Source: a virus. From it: a DNA stretch of 25,671 nucleotides. The stretch lies in IMG/VR virus record IMGVR_UViG_3300042453_005552, positions 1-25,671 of that record; one strand, given 5' to 3'. This document shows, in pieces, positions 3,963-25,671 of the stretch. Under the pieces are notes generated by a model, which was not told the DNA's origin, ran no database searches, and saw only the letters and a list, made by a program, of their open reading frames with translations. Positions within the stretch are counted from its first letter, which is position 1. Each line of letters opens with the position of its first letter. The position numbers and the translations under genes were made by a program.

Positions 3963-4105
3963 CGTCGTTTCTCCATGTTTGCTTTAGGGTTTTCGTTTGG
4001 CGTTACGACACAGTTCCCATGCTTTGGGAAGAACATCAAGCCGATGTGGAAAGTAATGTTTTGGATTCTCGAAGAATGTTTTCGAGCCCCACAAACGCCA
4101 CCGTT
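3963..4105 (-). promoter_or_regulatory. Leader/promoter repeat, copy A
   Basis: This is the upstream region of the 3962-to-2808 unit, and it resembles copies B (5922-6060) and C (7098-7262). Shared features, read on the minus strand toward the gene: a GCTTGATG-like block (around 4030-4042), a CATGGG/TGTGTCGTAACG-like block (around 4000-4020), and a CAAACATGGAGA ribosome-binding site. Farther upstream, GCCCCACAAACGCCAC (4086-4101 on the plus strand) is identical over 16 bases to 7240-7255. TTCCC (4014-4018) and GGGAA (4026-4030) form a small inverted repeat. The resemblance is seen by eye; the promoter function is inferred. Confidence 0.6.
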
Positions 4106-4150
4106 TGGCACCGTTCGCGTCGCTTTGGAACTTGGGAGAATGACGCCCTC

Positions 4151-7097: not shown

Positions 7098-7262
7098 CTC
7101 TGTCTCTCCGTTTGGGTGGGGTGGGTTTGTCATTTGCGATCGCGGTTGCGTTCGCGTGTGACACATGAAGCCCTGCGGTTCGGAACACATCCAGCCGAGA
7201 AAGCATGTTTTTCAAGGTCTTTTCGCATGTTTTTCGGTCGCCCCACAAACGCCACGGTTGGG
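7098..7262 (-). promoter_or_regulatory. Leader/promoter repeat, copy C
   Basis: This is the upstream region of the amidoligase unit. On the minus strand it shows CGGCTGGATGTG, AACCGCAGGGCTTCATGTGT and, nearer the gene, AAACGGAGAGACAGAG before the ATG. It therefore resembles copies A and B. GCCCCACAAACGCCAC (7240-7255) is identical to 4086-4101 and is followed by a similar GGTTGGG. It lies in a 275-base divergent gap, so part of it may also serve the late operon that starts at 7373. Confidence 0.55.
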
Positions 7263-7372
7263 CCCGTGTGGGGGCCAAAAATCATGTGCCCAATGAGGCC
7301 AACATCGAAGAAACTCGCACCAGTGGGGCACGTGTTGGCCACCGTGCCAAACATCCAAGAAGGGAGCCTGGT
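7263..7372 (+). promoter_or_regulatory. Upstream region of the late operon
   Basis: These 110 bases precede the first late gene and, with copy C, form the divergent gap between the accessory and structural halves. TTGGGCCC/GGGGCCAA (7258-7280, one mismatch) and GGCAC/GTGCC (7327-7331 and 7344-7348) are imperfect inverted repeats. GTTGGCC occurs at 7334-7340, as in the gaps at 890 and 6093. I see no confident -35/-10 pair. A late promoter is expected here from gene layout. Confidence 0.35.
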
Positions 7373-19486: not shown

Positions 19487-21478
19487 ATGGCATCCAGTTC
19501 CAACATCAAAGCCGGCGCAGCCTACATCGAGCTCTACACCAAGGACTCTCGTCTGGTGAAGGGGCTCAATGACGCTGCCAAGCGACTGGACGCATTCGGT
19601 AAAAGCCTCCAAGGAATCGGGACCAAAATGGCGATGCTTGGTGCAGGGATCGTCACCCCACTGGCCGGCGCTGCCAAGGTCTTTGCCGACATGGGCAGCG
19701 ATATGGTCGACATGAGCCAGCGCACTGGCGTGTCGGTCGAAGCCCTCTCGGAACTGGGGTTTGCTGCCGAGCAATCCGGTGCTGATATGGGGACACTCGA
19801 GGGCTCGCTCAAAAAGATGCAGAAGATGCTCTTCGAAGCGGCGTCCGGATCGCAATCGGCCCAAGAAACCCTCGCATCGCTTGGGCTCAGTGTTGCGCAG
19901 CTGTCAAAACTATCGCCTGACGAACAGTTCAAATTGATCGCAGATCGAATGTCACAGATCACCGATCCAACGCTGAAGACTGCGACAGCGATGGCGATCT
20001 TTGGTAAATCGGGCACGCAGTTACTGCCGATGCTTTCGAGTGGTGCCAAAGGAATCGAAGAGCTGCAGCAACAAGCTCGCGATCTGGGCCTGACTATGGC
20101 CACCGAAGATGCCCAAGCAGCTGAGGCCTTCGGAGATCGCATCGATGTCTTGTGGAAAGTCCTTAAGAAGACCGTCTTCACCATCGGCTCCGCATTAGAG
20201 CCGGTTCTATCGGCAATGATCGATTCAACAGTTCGAATCGTTGTGGCCACTAGCGACTGGATCAAGAACAACAAAGGTTTGATCGTCACGGTCTTCAAGG
20301 TGGGAATTGCGATCGCGGCCGGTGGAGCGGCAATTGTCGCCCTCGGCGCTGCAGCGGTTGGACTTAGCACTGTCTTCGGCGCTGCCGCAAGTGTTCTTGT
20401 GGGAATCGGCCAAGGGGTCGCAATCCTCGGAACAGCGATCGCAGCATTACTTTCTCCGATTGGGCTGACCATCGCAGGTCTTGCAACACTGGTTGGATAC
20501 TTTGTCTACACCACGGGTGCCGGCACACAAGCGATGCAGTGGCTGGGGGATCGATTCAATGAACTCAAAGACACCGCACTCGCTGCCTGGCAAGGGATCG
20601 GAGATGCGCTGGCGGCCGGAGATATCGCACTGGCAGGCAAAATCCTGTGGCTCACCCTCAAAATGGAATGGCAACGTGGAGTCGCATTCCTGCAGTCTAA
20701 GTGGCTCGACTTCAAAGGATTCTTCATCGGTATCTTCCAAAGCGCGGTCTATAGCGTCGCAGGTCTAATGACCGACGCGTGGGCAGGACTACAAACCGGC
20801 TGGCTAGAAACAACCCACTTCATCGCCGATAGCTGGACTGTTCTCATCAGCCTGCTCCAAAAGGGATGGAATCGATTCAGCGGGTTCTTTCAAAAGGTCT
20901 GGGCCCGCATTCAAGGTCTCTTTGGGGATACGAATGCCGAATCCGAGATCGCCAAGATCAACGATGAGATCGCTCGACAGGATGAGTTGATCAACAACTC
21001 TCAAAACCAAACCATTCTCGATCGCGAGAAACAACGCCAAAAGGCTCGCAATCAAATCGAGCAAGATCGCCAAGGGGCGCAGTCGGCGCTCTCAGACATG
21101 CAAGCCCAAGAGCAGTCTGCTTTAGCCGATGCAAATCAGAAGGCATTGGCTGACTCCGCAGCAGAACTCGAAAAGGCCAAGGGCGAATGGAAATCGGCGA
21201 TCGGCGAAGCAGCGCAGAAACGCTCGGAAACCTCTCCTGGGTCATCCAGCAAATTCTCGTCATCCGGTCTTGGCTTGCCAGACCTAGGCAGTATGGATCA
21301 ATCGCTTGCCGAGACCAAGAAAAAGACGGATGTGGTCGGAACATTTAACCCGATCGCAGCCATGAACCTTGGATCCGATTCGCTAGGCGAACGAACCGCA
21401 CGTGCTAGCGAAGAAGTCGCTTCCAACACCAAGAAACTCGTCCAGCAAGCCGACCGTGGTGGTTTGGTCTTTGGATAG
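19487..21478 (+). CDS. Tail tape measure protein
   Basis: A 663-residue protein. It has an N-terminal helical domain with repeated Gly/Ala/Met helices (MAMLGAGIVTPLAGAAKVFA; QRTGVSVEALSELGFAAEQS). A hydrophobic Gly/Ala/Val zone at about 265-345 contains several membrane-like helices. A Trp-rich region spans ~350-480, and a Gln/Lys/Ala coiled-coil ~490-580. The tail is Ser-rich. The length and composition are those of a siphovirus tape measure, which sets tail length and may insert into the host membrane during DNA entry. By the usual ~0.15 nm per residue, a tail of roughly 100 nm is expected. The place after the chaperones is canonical. No lysozyme domain is seen. Confidence 0.9.
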   Translation: MASSSNIKAGAAYIELYTKDSRLVKGLNDAAKRLDAFGKSLQGIGTKMAMLGAGIVTPLAGAAKVFADMGSDMVDMSQRTGVSVEALSELGFAAEQSGADMGTLEGSLKKMQKMLFEAASGSQSAQETLASLGLSVAQLSKLSPDEQFKLIADRMSQITDPTLKTATAMAIFGKSGTQLLPMLSSGAKGIEELQQQARDLGLTMATEDAQAAEAFGDRIDVLWKVLKKTVFTIGSALEPVLSAMIDSTVRIVVATSDWIKNNKGLIVTVFKVGIAIAAGGAAIVALGAAAVGLSTVFGAAASVLVGIGQGVAILGTAIAALLSPIGLTIAGLATLVGYFVYTTGAGTQAMQWLGDRFNELKDTALAAWQGIGDALAAGDIALAGKILWLTLKMEWQRGVAFLQSKWLDFKGFFIGIFQSAVYSVAGLMTDAWAGLQTGWLETTHFIADSWTVLISLLQKGWNRFSGFFQKVWARIQGLFGDTNAESEIAKINDEIARQDELINNSQNQTILDREKQRQKARNQIEQDRQGAQSALSDMQAQEQSALADANQKALADSAAELEKAKGEWKSAIGEAAQKRSETSPGSSSKFSSSGLGLPDLGSMDQSLAETKKKTDVVGTFNPIAAMNLGSDSLGERTARASEEVASNTKKLVQQADRGGLVFG

Positions 21479-21487
21479 GAGAACCAG

Positions 21488-22279
21488 ATGCCTCAGCCAA
21501 TTATCGTCGAACGCTTTGACTCCAAGGATATCAGCGAAAGCAAGGACAATCCGAGTGCGGACTTGATCTACATGATCATGAACACCGAGGATTACGCCAC
21601 GGCTAAAGGCCTAATGGCCTCGACGATTCCAGCAAAGTTTGGAGATCTTTTCCTAGACGATTATCACATCGTTCACCAAGGAAACGGTGTCTGGGAAGGA
21701 ACCGCACGTTACGTCAAATGGAAAAGCGAATCGCAGTACTCGTTTGATACCGGTGGTGGCACGCAACATACGACCCAGAGCATTGCAAATGTCGGCAAGT
21801 ACTCGGCAGCAGGATTCGTTGCTCCGGATTTCTTTGGTGCCATCGGAGTCACCGACGATCGGGTTGAAGGGACCGACATCACGGTCCCCGTTTTCAATTT
21901 CACTGAAACCCACTACATCGACAAAACACTCGTCACCGGAGCGTACAAGCTTGCCCTGTTCAATCTCACAGGCAAAGTAAATGGTTCGGGATTCAAGGGA
22001 TTTGCGAAAGGCGAGGTGCTGTTTCTCGGAGCAAGCGGATCCAAGCGTGGCCTGGACGATTGGGAGATTACGTTCCGGTTTGCCGCCAGTCCGAACGTGG
22101 CCGGCCTTTCTCTGGGAAGCATCACCGGAATTGCCAAAGAAGGATGGCAATACCTCTGGGTTCGATTCATCGATGATGAAGACTCGACAGCCAAGGCACT
22201 CATTAAACGACCGGTTTCTGCTTACGTCGAGCAGGTTTATTCATACGGCGATTTCAGTGGCCTTGGGATCGGAGTGTAA
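21488..22279 (+). CDS. Virion protein of the tail-tip region, unknown function
   Basis: A 263-residue protein with AGGAGAACCAG directly before the ATG. It is a mixed beta protein. Blocks such as YATAKGLMASTIPAKFGDLF, GNGVWEGTARY, DWEITFRFAASPNVAGL and GWQYLWVRFIDDEDS are the sort seen in uncharacterised siphovirus tail genes just after the tape measure, where distal tail or hub proteins sit. I cannot assign a named family. It has four bases to the next gene. Confidence 0.6.
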   Translation: MPQPIIVERFDSKDISESKDNPSADLIYMIMNTEDYATAKGLMASTIPAKFGDLFLDDYHIVHQGNGVWEGTARYVKWKSESQYSFDTGGGTQHTTQSIANVGKYSAAGFVAPDFFGAIGVTDDRVEGTDITVPVFNFTETHYIDKTLVTGAYKLALFNLTGKVNGSGFKGFAKGEVLFLGASGSKRGLDDWEITFRFAASPNVAGLSLGSITGIAKEGWQYLWVRFIDDEDSTAKALIKRPVSAYVEQVYSYGDFSGLGIGV

Positions 22280-22282
22280 TCG

Positions 22283-22954
22283 ATGGGAGACCAATTCCGC
22301 AAAGTGCTACCAGGGGATCCGCTGAAGATTCCGGCGGAAGCCTGGAATGCTTTGGTGGATTTGTCCCAACAGCAAAAGAACCAGCGGCACGATCAACGAT
22401 CGAACGACGAAGGTACGTCGCGTCAAACGACACTCGCCAAAGTACGCAACCAAACCGGTGTCGATCTGGATCGCTTCTCCGTTGTGGCACTCGGAACTCC
22501 AATCATCACCCCAGCGGCCAATCTCACCGAATTCAAACGCCAAGTCAGCTTCCAAGGTCTTGTTCCAAGTGCTGGCACTGGGCCACGCTTTGGTGTGCTA
22601 CTAGAACCGCTCAAGAACAATTTCATTGGCACCGCAGCGCTCGGAGGCTGCGTCATCACGCGAGTTTCCGTGGGTGCTACAGCGTACGCCTGTGCGGAAA
22701 CTGTGACCGGTCAAAACGGCTACTTACGCAGCGTTCCACACGGACCAGCATCGGTGCTGTGGATCGAATCCTCGGGCACGGTGCGATGGGCGGTGATTCG
22801 TTTCGATGATGCCAACTACGAAGAGATCGTCTTCATCACCAGCAATATTCCAGACGGCAACGGTTACTACCCAGGCGTCGTCCAGAAGTTTGACGTCGCC
22901 ACCAAATCATGGAGCACGATTTTTAACTGCAAGGTGGTGGATGCTAACAAATGA
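22283..22954 (+). CDS. Tail-region protein, unknown function
   Basis: A 223-residue protein. The first 45 residues are polar and Gln/Arg-rich (PAEAWNALVDLSQQQKNQRH). Residues ~60-185 look like a beta-barrel with VRWAVIRF at its end. The remaining ~40 residues form a small Gly/Tyr-containing module (DGNGYYPGVVQKFD). No enzymatic motif is seen. It overlaps the fibre gene by an ATGA junction, so it is probably a baseplate or fibre-attachment component. That is inferred from location. Confidence 0.55.
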   Translation: MGDQFRKVLPGDPLKIPAEAWNALVDLSQQQKNQRHDQRSNDEGTSRQTTLAKVRNQTGVDLDRFSVVALGTPIITPAANLTEFKRQVSFQGLVPSAGTGPRFGVLLEPLKNNFIGTAALGGCVITRVSVGATAYACAETVTGQNGYLRSVPHGPASVLWIESSGTVRWAVIRFDDANYEEIVFITSNIPDGNGYYPGVVQKFDVATKSWSTIFNCKVVDANK

Positions 22955-24438
22955 CCTTGTATTCACGTCGCTACATCGCCACTTCAGTAAATGGCTCGGT
23001 CGAAGGCCTGCCGGTGTATGCAGCGACCTGTGCGCAACAACGATCCGGGCAAGGCCCCAAACGCCAACTTGGACATTTCCTTGGGATGATTGATGGAGAA
23101 CCTTTGTATGCGGTATCTAGCTGTGAGTTTCCTAAGATGGGTCGTTACCTCATGCGTTATGTGGGGTTTGCCGACCTGCCTATCTACGCCATCGTTTGCT
23201 GCGAGCTTTCCTCGAGTGGATCTTCGGGGAGCAGTGGTTCATCGGGCACATCTGGCTCCTCTGGATCTTCGGGCTCTAGTGGCTCGTCAGGTTCATCGGG
23301 TTCAAGCGGCTCTTCGGGATCGAGTGGTAGCAGTGGATCCTCCGGTTCGAATTCCGGAAGCGGATCTGGATCCAAAGGAAGCTCTGGCCCCTCCGGGCAA
23401 AGCGGCAGCTCAGGGAGCAGCGGATACTCTGGTTCCAGTGGCTACTCAGGCAGCAGCGGATCATCGGGCTCGAGCGGTTCATCTGGCAGCTCCGGTTCAT
23501 CCGGCAGTGGCTCGTCGAGTAGTGGCTCGCAAAGCGGATCTTCAGGTAGTTCAGGGACGAAAGGTAGCTCAGGTCCAAGTGGCTCCAGTGGCCCAAGCGG
23601 CTCATCCGGTTCGAAGCCATCAGGGAGCAGTGGTTCAAGCGGTAGTGGATCATCAGCAAGCGGTTCATCGGGCAGTGGTTCCGCTGGCAGTTCAGGAACC
23701 AAAGGTAGCTCGGGATCTAGCGGCCCAAGTGGTAGCGGCTCAAGTGGGAGTGGATCACAGAGCGGTTCGCAAAGCGGCTCACAGAGTGGGTCCGGCAGTC
23801 AATCCGGTTCAGGATCGCAGTCAGGATCGCAGTCAGGATCGCAGTCAGGTTCGCAGTCAGGTTCGCAGTCGGGATCACAGTCGGGATCACAAAGCGGCAG
23901 CAAACCGTCCGGCTCAGGCTCCGGTTCATCGGGACCCAGTGGCAGTGTTTCAGGTCCCAGCGGCACTGGCCCCAGTGGCTCCGGCTCTGGCAGTAAACCA
24001 TCTGGTGGCAGCTATGGCAGTGGCTCTGGATCAAGCGGGTCCAGGTCTGGCTCGGGTTCAGGTAGCGGTTCCGGTTCCGGATCGAGTGGTGGTGGATCGA
24101 GTGGCGCTGGCTCCAGCGGACCAGGATCCAGCGGACCAGGATCTAGTGGTGTCGGTTCCAGTGGCGTTGGCAGTTCAGGGCAATCGTATGGCTCTAGCGG
24201 TAATAGCGGTGGCTCGTCGGGCGGCAGCGGCAGCTCTGGTTCAGCAAGTGGGTGTTGCTGCCCGTGTTACTACCAGTGGAACGGACTTGGCTGGGTGGCC
24301 GTTGCTGTGCCGGATCCGTGCATCATTCGGGTCGGCCCGCTTCAGGCCGCATGCATCTGTGCGGGGGATGAGCCGACCAGCCCCGGCTCCTATGTCGGAC
24401 AAACCATTTACACAGGATGCGAGCAAGGTGCGATATGA
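22951..24438 (+). CDS. Gly/Ser-repeat tail fibre-like protein with Cys-rich tip
   Basis: A 495-residue protein starting in an ATGA overlap. Residues 1-86 form an ordered head with repeated short motifs (LPVYAATC, PLYAVSSCEF, LPIYAIVCCEL), each a hydrophobic strand ending in Cys. Residues ~87-433 are low complexity. The first part is strictly Gly every third residue, mostly Gly-Ser-Ser with GPS, GYS, GQS and GTK variants; later it shifts to Ser-Gly-Ser-Gln and Gly-Ser units. The last 62 residues are Cys-rich (GCCCPC, a Trp-Asn-Gly-Leu-Gly-Trp turn, CIIRV, CICAG), probably a disulfide- or metal-stabilised tip. It is a plausible stalked adhesin. The Gly-X-Y periodicity recalls collagen-like phage fibres, but proline is scarce. 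Serine is abundant enough to be heavily glycosylated, and a glycosyltransferase gene lies two genes downstream. Confidence 0.75.
   Translation: MTLYSRRYIATSVNGSVEGLPVYAATCAQQRSGQGPKRQLGHFLGMIDGEPLYAVSSCEFPKMGRYLMRYVGFADLPIYAIVCCELSSSGSSGSSGSSGTSGSSGSSGSSGSSGSSGSSGSSGSSGSSGSSGSNSGSGSGSKGSSGPSGQSGSSGSSGYSGSSGYSGSSGSSGSSGSSGSSGSSGSGSSSSGSQSGSSGSSGTKGSSGPSGSSGPSGSSGSKPSGSSGSSGSGSSASGSSGSGSAGSSGTKGSSGSSGPSGSGSSGSGSQSGSQSGSQSGSGSQSGSGSQSGSQSGSQSGSQSGSQSGSQSGSQSGSKPSGSGSGSSGPSGSVSGPSGTGPSGSGSGSKPSGGSYGSGSGSSGSRSGSGSGSGSGSGSSGGGSSGAGSSGPGSSGPGSSGVGSSGVGSSGQSYGSSGNSGGSSGGSGSSGSASGCCCPCYYQWNGLGWVAVAVPDPCIIRVGPLQAACICAGDEPTSPGSYVGQTIYTGCEQGAI
23209..24249 (+). repeat. Ser/Gly codon repeat region of the fibre gene
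   Basis: About 1.04 kb of degenerate 9-base (Ser-Ser-Gly) and 12-base (Ser-Gly-Ser-Gln) units. Synonymous Ser and Gly codons are mixed (tct, tca, tcg, agc, agt; ggc, gga, ggt, ggg), which points to old divergence or selection for repeat stability rather than very recent slippage. Other frames stay open across it only because of the repeat. Confidence 0.9.
23809..23892 (+). repeat. Seven tandem 12-bp units encoding Ser-Gly-Ser-Gln
   Basis: The unit TCAGGATCGCAG occurs three times exactly (23809-23844), twice as TCAGGTTCGCAG and then twice with more changes up to 23892. This block is more homogeneous than the rest of the stalk, so it is the likeliest place for recent expansion or contraction. 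Confidence 0.85.
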
Positions 24439-24968
24439 CCAGACCTATTGAGTGTCCACACAACGTTGATGGCTATTGCCAGATCTCAACCGATTTGGCC
24501 CAGATGCCGGTTCCTATCGCCCAGGATGCCTGCGCTGCATGCATCCTGCAAGCAAATCCGCGAACCAAGAACTCCGTCACCTGCAGCAAGGCGATTCAGT
24601 ATCGAACGCTTGTCGGCATGCTTCCCACCGATGAGTTACTGGAGTGCGTGAAGCCACCATCGCGAGGTGTCGGAACCGAACTGGAATCCCTCATCGAGCA
24701 AACTCGCAGCTTCCTTCGGCGAGTCTGGCTGGGTTGGCTCATTCCCCCACGAGTCCAATGTGGCTGCTCGGCAACGCGGAGTTCCATGAATCAGCAAGGC
24801 GTGCTCGGATGCCTTCGCAATCGAGACAAACTCGCCGACGAAATTCTGGACCGATGGCGAAAGCATGTGCCAATCATTCGATTCGTTCCGTTGTCTCGAT
24901 TTTTGGTCGGGATCTATCTAATTCAGGCGATTCGCCGATTTCAAAACAAGGAGACTGCCAATGGCTAG
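24435..24968 (+). CDS. Cys-rich protein of unknown function, coupled to the fibre and glycosyltransferase
   Basis: A 177-residue protein. ATG 24435 is chosen (AAGGTG upstream, ATGA overlap with the fibre stop); an in-frame ATG at 24417 lies inside that gene. There are two cysteine clusters: residues 7, 15, 33, 36 and 50 (CPHNVDGYC, then DACAAC) and residues 109, 111 and 126 (CGC, then MNQQGVLGC). The centre has a hydrophobic helix (FLRRVWLGWLIPP). The clusters look like metal-binding sites. It may assist fibre folding or glycosylation, judged only from gene order. It overlaps the glycosyltransferase gene by eight bases. Confidence 0.6.
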   Translation: MTRPIECPHNVDGYCQISTDLAQMPVPIAQDACAACILQANPRTKNSVTCSKAIQYRTLVGMLPTDELLECVKPPSRGVGTELESLIEQTRSFLRRVWLGWLIPPRVQCGCSATRSSMNQQGVLGCLRNRDKLADEILDRWRKHVPIIRFVPLSRFLVGIYLIQAIRRFQNKETANG

Positions 24969-25671
24969 TTGCATGGAAGCCCATCCCGATCTGACTCCCG
25001 AAGCGATGATGGAACTGATCGCCCAGTGTCCACCAGGACCTTGGCCCAACGCCTGGGGTACATGGGACAACACGATTGAAGCCCATCGCAGATTGATTGA
25101 CCAGTACATTGACAACCTCATGCCCAGCAGAGTGACTTACTCGCAAGAGCGAGGCATCGTCATCGCTGGGGGAGGTTTAAAGTACTTTCCGAGCGTTTGG
25201 GTCAACGTGAATCTGCTTCGGCATTTTGGCTGCACGCTCCCGATCCAGCTTTGGTATCTGGGCGACACCGAGATGGATCCCTACATGAAACGATTACTTG
25301 AACCGCTCGGTGTTGAATGCATCGATGCCCGTGAGATTGAGAAACAGCACCCATGCCGGATCCTCTGTGGCTGGGAACTGAAACTCTACGCGACGCTCCA
25401 CTCACCGTTTGCCCAGGTTCTATTTCTGGACGCCGACAATGGGGTCGTGTGCGATCCAACGTATTTGTTCGACTGCGGGGAATACAAACGCCACGGCGCG
25501 GTTTTCTGGCCAGATTACGCGTGCTGGACGCTCAAGCCTGGCGTTTGGAAAGTTTTCGGGATGATGGATATGGCCGAACCGGAAGTGGCCGAGCACGAAC
25601 GAGCCTTCGAGTCCGGGCAATACCTCATCGACAAACGTCGCTGCGATCGCGAACTGCGATTGTCGTTACTC
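24961..25671 (+). CDS. GT71-like (MNN1-type) glycosyltransferase, N-terminal part; 3' end outside the window
   Basis: The first 237 residues are present and the frame is open to the end of the window. ATG 24961 follows AAGGAG at the usual spacing. Residues ~65-100 (GIVIAGGGLKYFPSVWVNVN, then LPIQLWYLGD) and residues 136-165 (CGWELKLYATL, VLFLDADNGVVCDP) match alpha-mannosyltransferases of the MNN1 group: nucleotide-sugar fold, DAD at 157-159 as the metal-binding DxD, and FESGQYLID at 216-224. The enzyme would add a sugar, probably mannose, to a protein or glycan. It has no signal peptide at its start and probably acts in the cytoplasm. The adjacent Ser-rich fibre is a candidate acceptor. Confidence 0.85.
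   Translation, partial: MASCMEAHPDLTPEAMMELIAQCPPGPWPNAWGTWDNTIEAHRRLIDQYIDNLMPSRVTYSQERGIVIAGGGLKYFPSVWVNVNLLRHFGCTLPIQLWYLGDTEMDPYMKRLLEPLGVECIDAREIEKQHPCRILCGWELKLYATLHSPFAQVLFLDADNGVVCDPTYLFDCGEYKRHGAVFWPDYACWTLKPGVWKVFGMMDMAEPEVAEHERAFESGQYLIDKRRCDRELRLSLL

Follow-up and report, generated by a model that had tools for sequence, protein, structure and literature searches.

Serine-rich tail fibres with adjoining glycosyltransferase genes in Planctomycetota phages: a probable virion-glycosylation cassette

The serine-rich repeat protein (SRRP) adhesins of bacteria are anchored in the cell wall and exported by accessory Sec components, and their glycosylation is initiated by GtfA/GtfB. In gtr serotype-conversion clusters, phages carry membrane glycosyltransferases together with a flippase and a bactoprenol transferase, and giant viruses of eukaryote hosts encode sugar enzymes whose presumed substrates are long repetitive fibre proteins, their Gly-X-Y collagens. 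Virion glycosylation as such is already known, though shown in few phages: for mycobacteriophages such as Che8, the accounts of Freeman et al. 2023 given in PMC11256854 and PMC12619734 describe phage-encoded glycosyltransferases with the major capsid and tail-tube proteins as targets. The stretch analysed here (the window: all 25,671 nucleotides of IMG/VR record IMGVR_UViG_3300042453_005552) ends with a fibre gene rich in serine (Ser) and glycine (Gly), a gene for a Cys-rich protein, and a glycosyltransferase gene, which follow the tail genes in this order and overlap in series. We consider this locus, with a probability of roughly 70%, to be a virion-glycosylation cassette that closes the tail operon in siphovirus-like (pro)phages infecting Planctomycetota, viruses that probably sugar-coat their own fibres.

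With the SRRP adhesins the locus shares a long Ser-rich stalk and glycosyltransferases encoded beside it. It differs in that neither a cell-wall anchor nor accessory Sec export is seen for the phage fibre, and the only GT4 enzyme at the phage loci that could be set beside GtfA/GtfB occurs in sister phages, which have the Ser-rich region fused to the conserved tail protein BP. A hydropathy scan revealed no hydrophobic segment at the fibre start (the 19-residue maximum of 1.32 lies at residue 446), and because no export signal is present there, the phage locus is not an SRRP system. Neither is it a gtr cluster: its glycosyltransferases are likewise phage-borne, but they are soluble and lie behind a fibre gene, and no flippase-type partner was noted among the downstream genes. 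Giant-virus fibres resemble the present ones in combining virus-encoded sugar enzymes with long repetitive proteins, and differ in their enzymes and in their eukaryote hosts. The likeness to mycobacteriophages, as far as the accounts cited above describe them, lies in phage-encoded glycosyltransferases thought to modify virion proteins; there the enzymes are placed near the genome end, whereas here they adjoin a dedicated Ser-rich fibre, a candidate target. The phage group studied here is unrelated to the mycobacteriophages, and tblastn gave no match for the enzyme among INPHARED phages or PLSDB plasmids, nor for the conserved tail protein T21 among INPHARED phages. The locus would be a variant of phage virion glycosylation, and our literature search turned up no paper describing a Ser-rich phage fibre that comes with its own glycosyltransferases, nor one on their joint exchange. 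An environmental phage family appears to make a glycoprotein fibre of its own by means of dedicated enzymes, and the comparative data tie the enzyme to its candidate acceptor. Sugar enzymes encoded in tail loci can thereby be read anew. The family also provides a compact system in which dense O-glycosylation of a protein could be studied in bacteria, and a testable route by which the glycan coat of a fibre could be exchanged as a module.

Both overlaps described in an earlier note on this DNA are read in the sequence, the ATGA shared by the fibre and Cys-rich genes at 24435-24438 and the eight bases shared by the Cys-rich and enzyme genes at 24961-24968. The coupling of fibre and enzyme extends to their relatives. 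A first scan gave 35 viral enzyme loci, and all 34 that have upstream DNA encode a Ser/Gly-rich protein just upstream; a profile scan gave 41, with a Ser/Gly-rich stretch upstream (60 residues of at least 65% S+G, within 2 kb) in 40/40 of those with at least 700 bp of upstream DNA. Thus the co-occurrence check proposed in the earlier note, which took an enzyme without a Ser-rich protein as the case against, returned a partner for every viral relative with upstream DNA. The pairing holds even at 40-43% enzyme identity, where the N-terminal domain of the fibre is not detected (L128, L129, L131). Searching with the alignment of that domain (A1) yielded 56 loci in viruses and 5 in genomes, these 5 from Pirellula, Isosphaeraceae and Gemmatales assemblies. 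No enzyme match is seen in 20 of the viral fibre loci; in 19 of these the contig ends in the fibre or at most 564 bp beyond, and the remaining one (L085) has about 1.1 kb beyond the domain, less than a typical fibre and enzyme together need. The genome loci read fibre, enzyme, sugar-type FkbM methyltransferase (PF05050), except for L134, which is cut inside the enzyme, and in most loci with enough DNA FkbM follows the enzyme. Pfam shows enzyme and FkbM fused into a single protein in L128, and the same fusion is judged from the sequence for L129 and L131. Furthermore, the L006 enzyme has a second transferase-like region, read from the sequence and without a Pfam match of its own, and that of L033 a GT2 domain (Pfam) and what reads as a sulfotransferase-like tail.

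The earlier note had taken fibre, Cys-rich protein and enzyme as one coupled module, possibly producing a self-glycosylated adhesin. Of this, the pairing of fibre and enzyme stands, and recurs with an unrelated GT4 enzyme, whereas the Cys-rich protein, found in only 16/35 enzyme loci, is ruled out as an obligate partner. The extent proposed for the module was right from fibre to enzyme but too short, as it reaches past the window to FkbM and sometimes to further sugar enzymes. Divergent homologues of the Cys-rich protein (L128, L131) are the only ones with a resemblance to DUF6171 (Pfam), which is weak and below the cut-off. In these same two loci, a gene reading like a radical SAM (S-adenosylmethionine) enzyme lies behind the fused glycosyltransferase-FkbM gene (L128:3913-4767, L131:7686-8555). 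A decayed-looking prophage copy (L164/L241, the same contig) has a frame-shifted T21 gene and retains FkbM, while fibre and glycosyltransferase are missing.

A contrast set was obtained by fetching relatives through the upstream tail genes T21 and BP, regardless of fibre. Three types of Ser-rich fibre appear in it: the window type with its GT71 enzyme, a type fused to BP, and a Hint-like type. The fused type has a GT4 gene 3-24 bp downstream in 18/20 loci, followed by genes of GT64, GT2, FkbM, sulfotransferase or pyruvyltransferase type; this GT4 enzyme is non-homologous to the GT71 enzyme of the window and occupies the same position. Since the Ser-rich region sits on the C-terminus of BP in L153, L157, L158 and also L129, a virion location is implied. 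Distinct loci anchored by a tail gene and continuing for 3 kb or more downstream were scored with our own profiles and with Pfam on selected genes: a glycosyltransferase lies behind the Ser-rich fibre in 36/41, and is present in 2/13 of those without such a fibre (nominal p=3e-6, which ignores the relatedness of the loci). This count is used instead of a broader one that includes loci fetched by the enzyme (49/55 vs 2/16); the association held when one more Gly_transf_sug match from a locus without Ser-rich fibre, itself unplaced, was added to the latter. The two exceptions are L185, with a GT2-methyltransferase and a sulfotransferase, and L260 (L260:8001-12025), in which a tail protein with a Collagen match (Pfam) is directly followed by a GT2-methyltransferase gene. 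Somewhere in the group of loci to which L260 belongs there is also a 2OG-Fe(II) oxygenase. As for the Hint type, its neighbours are weakly MptE/CST-I-like, and L198 also has a Gly_transf_sug gene. Fibres of this class (L208:11255-12763, L196:12717-13994, L181:7740-8954, L197:11092-12261) begin like KYFLYIPVWATT, carry a C-terminal Hint-like domain (weak in Pfam) and are preceded by a SAM methyltransferase gene and one that is MptE/CST-I-like; it is possible that they are self-cleaving.

The hosts are Planctomycetota, and T21 is found in 43/392 genomes of this phylum (about one in nine). From these, 40 regions were fetched, 37 of which were long enough: a Ser-rich stretch is present in 8, three of them with a GT4 cassette, and GT25- and Gly_transf_sug-type matches occur in this group taken as a whole. 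The layout of the T21 regions L322, L326 and L327, which belong to this group, is similar to that of the Hint type. The 29 regions without a Ser-rich stretch gave five glycosyltransferase matches (GT2 3, GT9 2) among 91 genes, many of these genes being ordinary host genes. A host-derived enzyme is not supported, PF11051 being present in 3/392 genomes; in three host genomes that carry the module, all PF11051 matches fall inside module copies. On a tree of T21 (86 rows) the GT71 label changes 12 times and the GT4 label 8 times, with the placement of L034, L129 and L036, which sit on long branches, uncertain and some labels taken from contigs with an early end; where branches are well supported, no fewer than 5 GT71 and 4 GT4 changes are required. 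Near neighbours may carry different cassettes, as do L119 (GT71) and L262/L265 (GT4). Each of the two fibre types is paired with one of the two enzymes, and therefore fibre type and enzyme type move together: GT71 and GT4 cassettes have been swapped repeatedly, fibre and enzyme jointly. We tentatively suggest, as a possibility still short of an even chance, an exchangeable 'glycofibre' locus, in which a Ser-rich tail fibre would be swapped as a unit with the enzymes that build its glycan (GT71, or GT4+GT64+GT2) and cap it with methyl (FkbM), sulfo or pyruvyl groups. This could provide different glycan coats or ligands for host lectins, as a glycan analogue of tail-fibre exchange.

The fibre consists of an 86-residue N-terminal part, for which AlphaFold2 yielded no usable model, a stalk formed by residues 87-433, and a 62-residue Cys-containing tip, in whose place other fibre relatives have unrelated-looking tips. 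The Ser/Gly stalk of about 347 residues described in the earlier note has exactly that length, and is made up of 179 Ser (52%), 118 Gly and only 4 Thr among others. Every one of the six Ser codons is used (19-36 times each), as are the four Gly codons; it is therefore the amino-acid composition that is kept, not a DNA repeat, and this codon diversity rules out a DNA-satellite artefact. The stalk DNA contains short tandem arrays with periods of 12, 15 and 27, so slippage contributes to it, and its longest exact repeat is 29 nt. Repeats differ among the relatives (GSS triplets, SGESSGFSG, PSSG with period 4, GSGS), stalk length ranges from 121 to 519 residues, and in the sister phages Ser stays high while Gly drops to about 5%.

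The enzyme matches PF11051 (Mannosyl_trans3) with E=3e-24 and 86.2 bits against a cut-off of 22, and a full-length relative reaches 109.9 bits. The GT71-like character and the DxD and ESGQ motifs claimed for it earlier are confirmed, DAD being invariant and ESGQ (near-)invariant among the relatives, which measure 428-1022 residues when complete. As such, it is a true PF11051/GT71 glycosyltransferase, with alpha-mannosyl transfer as its candidate activity. The AlphaFold2 model of the 435-residue full relative L014 (pLDDT confidence 90.5) appears, from secondary structure and matches, to comprise a GT-A domain and a C-terminal beta domain. Its closest solved structure is the yeast GT71 mannosyltransferase MNT2, with a probability of 1.00 and a global TM (template modelling) score of only 0.4. 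The enzyme profile matches MNT2 weakly (E=0.011), with DAD aligned to DSD, and the ESG and GDK regions fall in a second, non-significant stretch. To the yeast alpha-1,3-mannosyltransferases MNN1/MNT2 the phage protein is thus alike in its PF11051 match, its DxD and ESG motifs and its fold; it differs in being soluble, with no membrane segments seen in the enzymes by hydropathy scan, in its extra C-terminal beta domain, and in often having FkbM behind or fused to it. The best match of the L014 model among viral models, a 511-residue phage protein labelled 'AdoMet_MTases', would be in line with a glycosyltransferase-methyltransferase fusion. A 901-residue protein with two PF11051 matches lies on a short contig piece of genome G040 (L284), with no Ser-rich protein in the 3.4 kb fetched.

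So how might such a cassette work? The Ser-rich fibre would be made from the gene behind the tail genes, and soluble glycosyltransferases, made from overlapping or close genes, would O-glycosylate its stalk serines in the cytoplasm before tail assembly, with host nucleotide sugars as likely donors. In the window type these would be GT71/PF11051 enzymes, and in the sister phages GT4 plus GT64/GT2. FkbM may then cap the glycan with methyl groups, and decoration by a sulfotransferase or pyruvyltransferase may be added in some relatives. This could make the stalk stiff, soluble and resistant to proteases, and/or change or mask surface binding.

Several points weigh against a virion-glycosylation cassette. 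Five Ser-rich loci are without a confident glycosyltransferase, four of them of the Hint class, and the counts are not independent, every locus coming from a single broad tail lineage. That the enzyme always accompanies a Ser-rich protein is true of its viral relatives with upstream DNA, but not of distant PF11051 genes, for which no such partner is visible in the fetched DNA (G040). Yeast GT71 enzymes extend existing glycans, and no first-sugar enzyme was identified in the window (GT71) class. The glycan on the fibre and its virion location are, moreover, deduced from gene content.

Where glycosyltransferases lie close to phage tail fibres, the usual reading is that they modify the host surface, e.g. 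in pelagimyophages (PMC7029224). By that account, the enzymes would alter the O-antigen or another polysaccharide of the lysogen and exclude other phages, and their adjacency to the fibre would merely reflect a shared host-interaction region, which fits with the module sometimes sitting at a prophage end, adjoining host genes. We consider this unlikely here, as the enzymes have no membrane segments and no gtrA/gtrB-like partner was seen, as such enzymes are mostly absent from related tail loci without a Ser-rich fibre, and as the enzyme type switches along with the fibre type on the T21 tree. Moreover, the order of fibre and enzyme is constant, the genes overlapping or lying only a few bases apart.

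The virion-glycosylation cassette also has to be weighed against two simpler views of the stalk. It could be a mere flexible, low-complexity linker that grew by repeat slippage, with the enzyme as an unrelated passenger gene, and the tandem arrays and variable length of the stalk can be cited for this. That Ser stays high with all codons in use, and does so in sister phages at about 5% Gly, which a flexible Gly-Ser linker would not need, makes such an origin improbable, as does a near-universal pairing that recurs with unrelated enzymes. Alternatively, a Pfam Collagen match (E=3e-8) would suggest a collagen-like triple helix, with the enzyme as a collagen-type modifier. We give this almost no credence, and reject the triple helix on Gly spacing: Gly occupies the best fixed third position in only 40% of the stalk triplets, strict Gly-X-Y is kept up for no more than 16 triplets in a row, where a triple helix calls for uninterrupted Gly-X-Y, and the period-4 PSSG or mixed repeats of the relatives are unfit for one.

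Table 1. Features at the end of the tail operon in the window
Feature	Position	Strand	Basis
Tape measure protein, tail operon context	19487..21478	+	PHROG tail length tape measure, E=6e-46
T21, conserved tail protein	21488..22279	+	kept in relatives; without PHROG match
BP, conserved tail protein	22283..22954	+	C-terminus fused to Ser-rich region in sister phages and L129
Ser/Gly-rich fibre, 495 aa	22951..24438	+	reading frame; comparison with relatives
Fibre N-terminal domain: three repeats, motif like R-Y-L-x-R-x-G...P-L-Y-A..C	22951..23202	+	alignment A1; 56 viral + 5 genome relatives
Ser/Gly stalk, 347 residues, 85.6% S+G	23209..24249	+	composition
Fibre C-terminal Cys-rich tip	24250..24435	+	comparison of fibres
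Cys-rich protein, 177 aa, optional member	24435..24968	+	in 16/35 enzyme loci
GT71/PF11051 glycosyltransferase, N-terminal 237 residues, cut by window end	24961..25671	+	Pfam, motifs; model and fold match of full relative

The source contig carries a siphovirus-like structural operon, with a lambda-type portal and a GpA-type terminase nuclease domain (Pfam), and with a head protein/protease, a major tail protein and the tape measure among its PHROG matches. Within the structural gene cluster lies a gene for a trypsin-like protease (PF13365, 14226-15482). A 24-nt direct repeat, 92% identical between its copies at 4086-4109 and 7240-7263, lies within two spacer-like stretches. An identical contig of 47.6 kb, IMGVR_UViG_3300042539_002592 (L002), ends at the same base of the enzyme gene as the window (25671), and this shared end point is probably an assembly break between variants.

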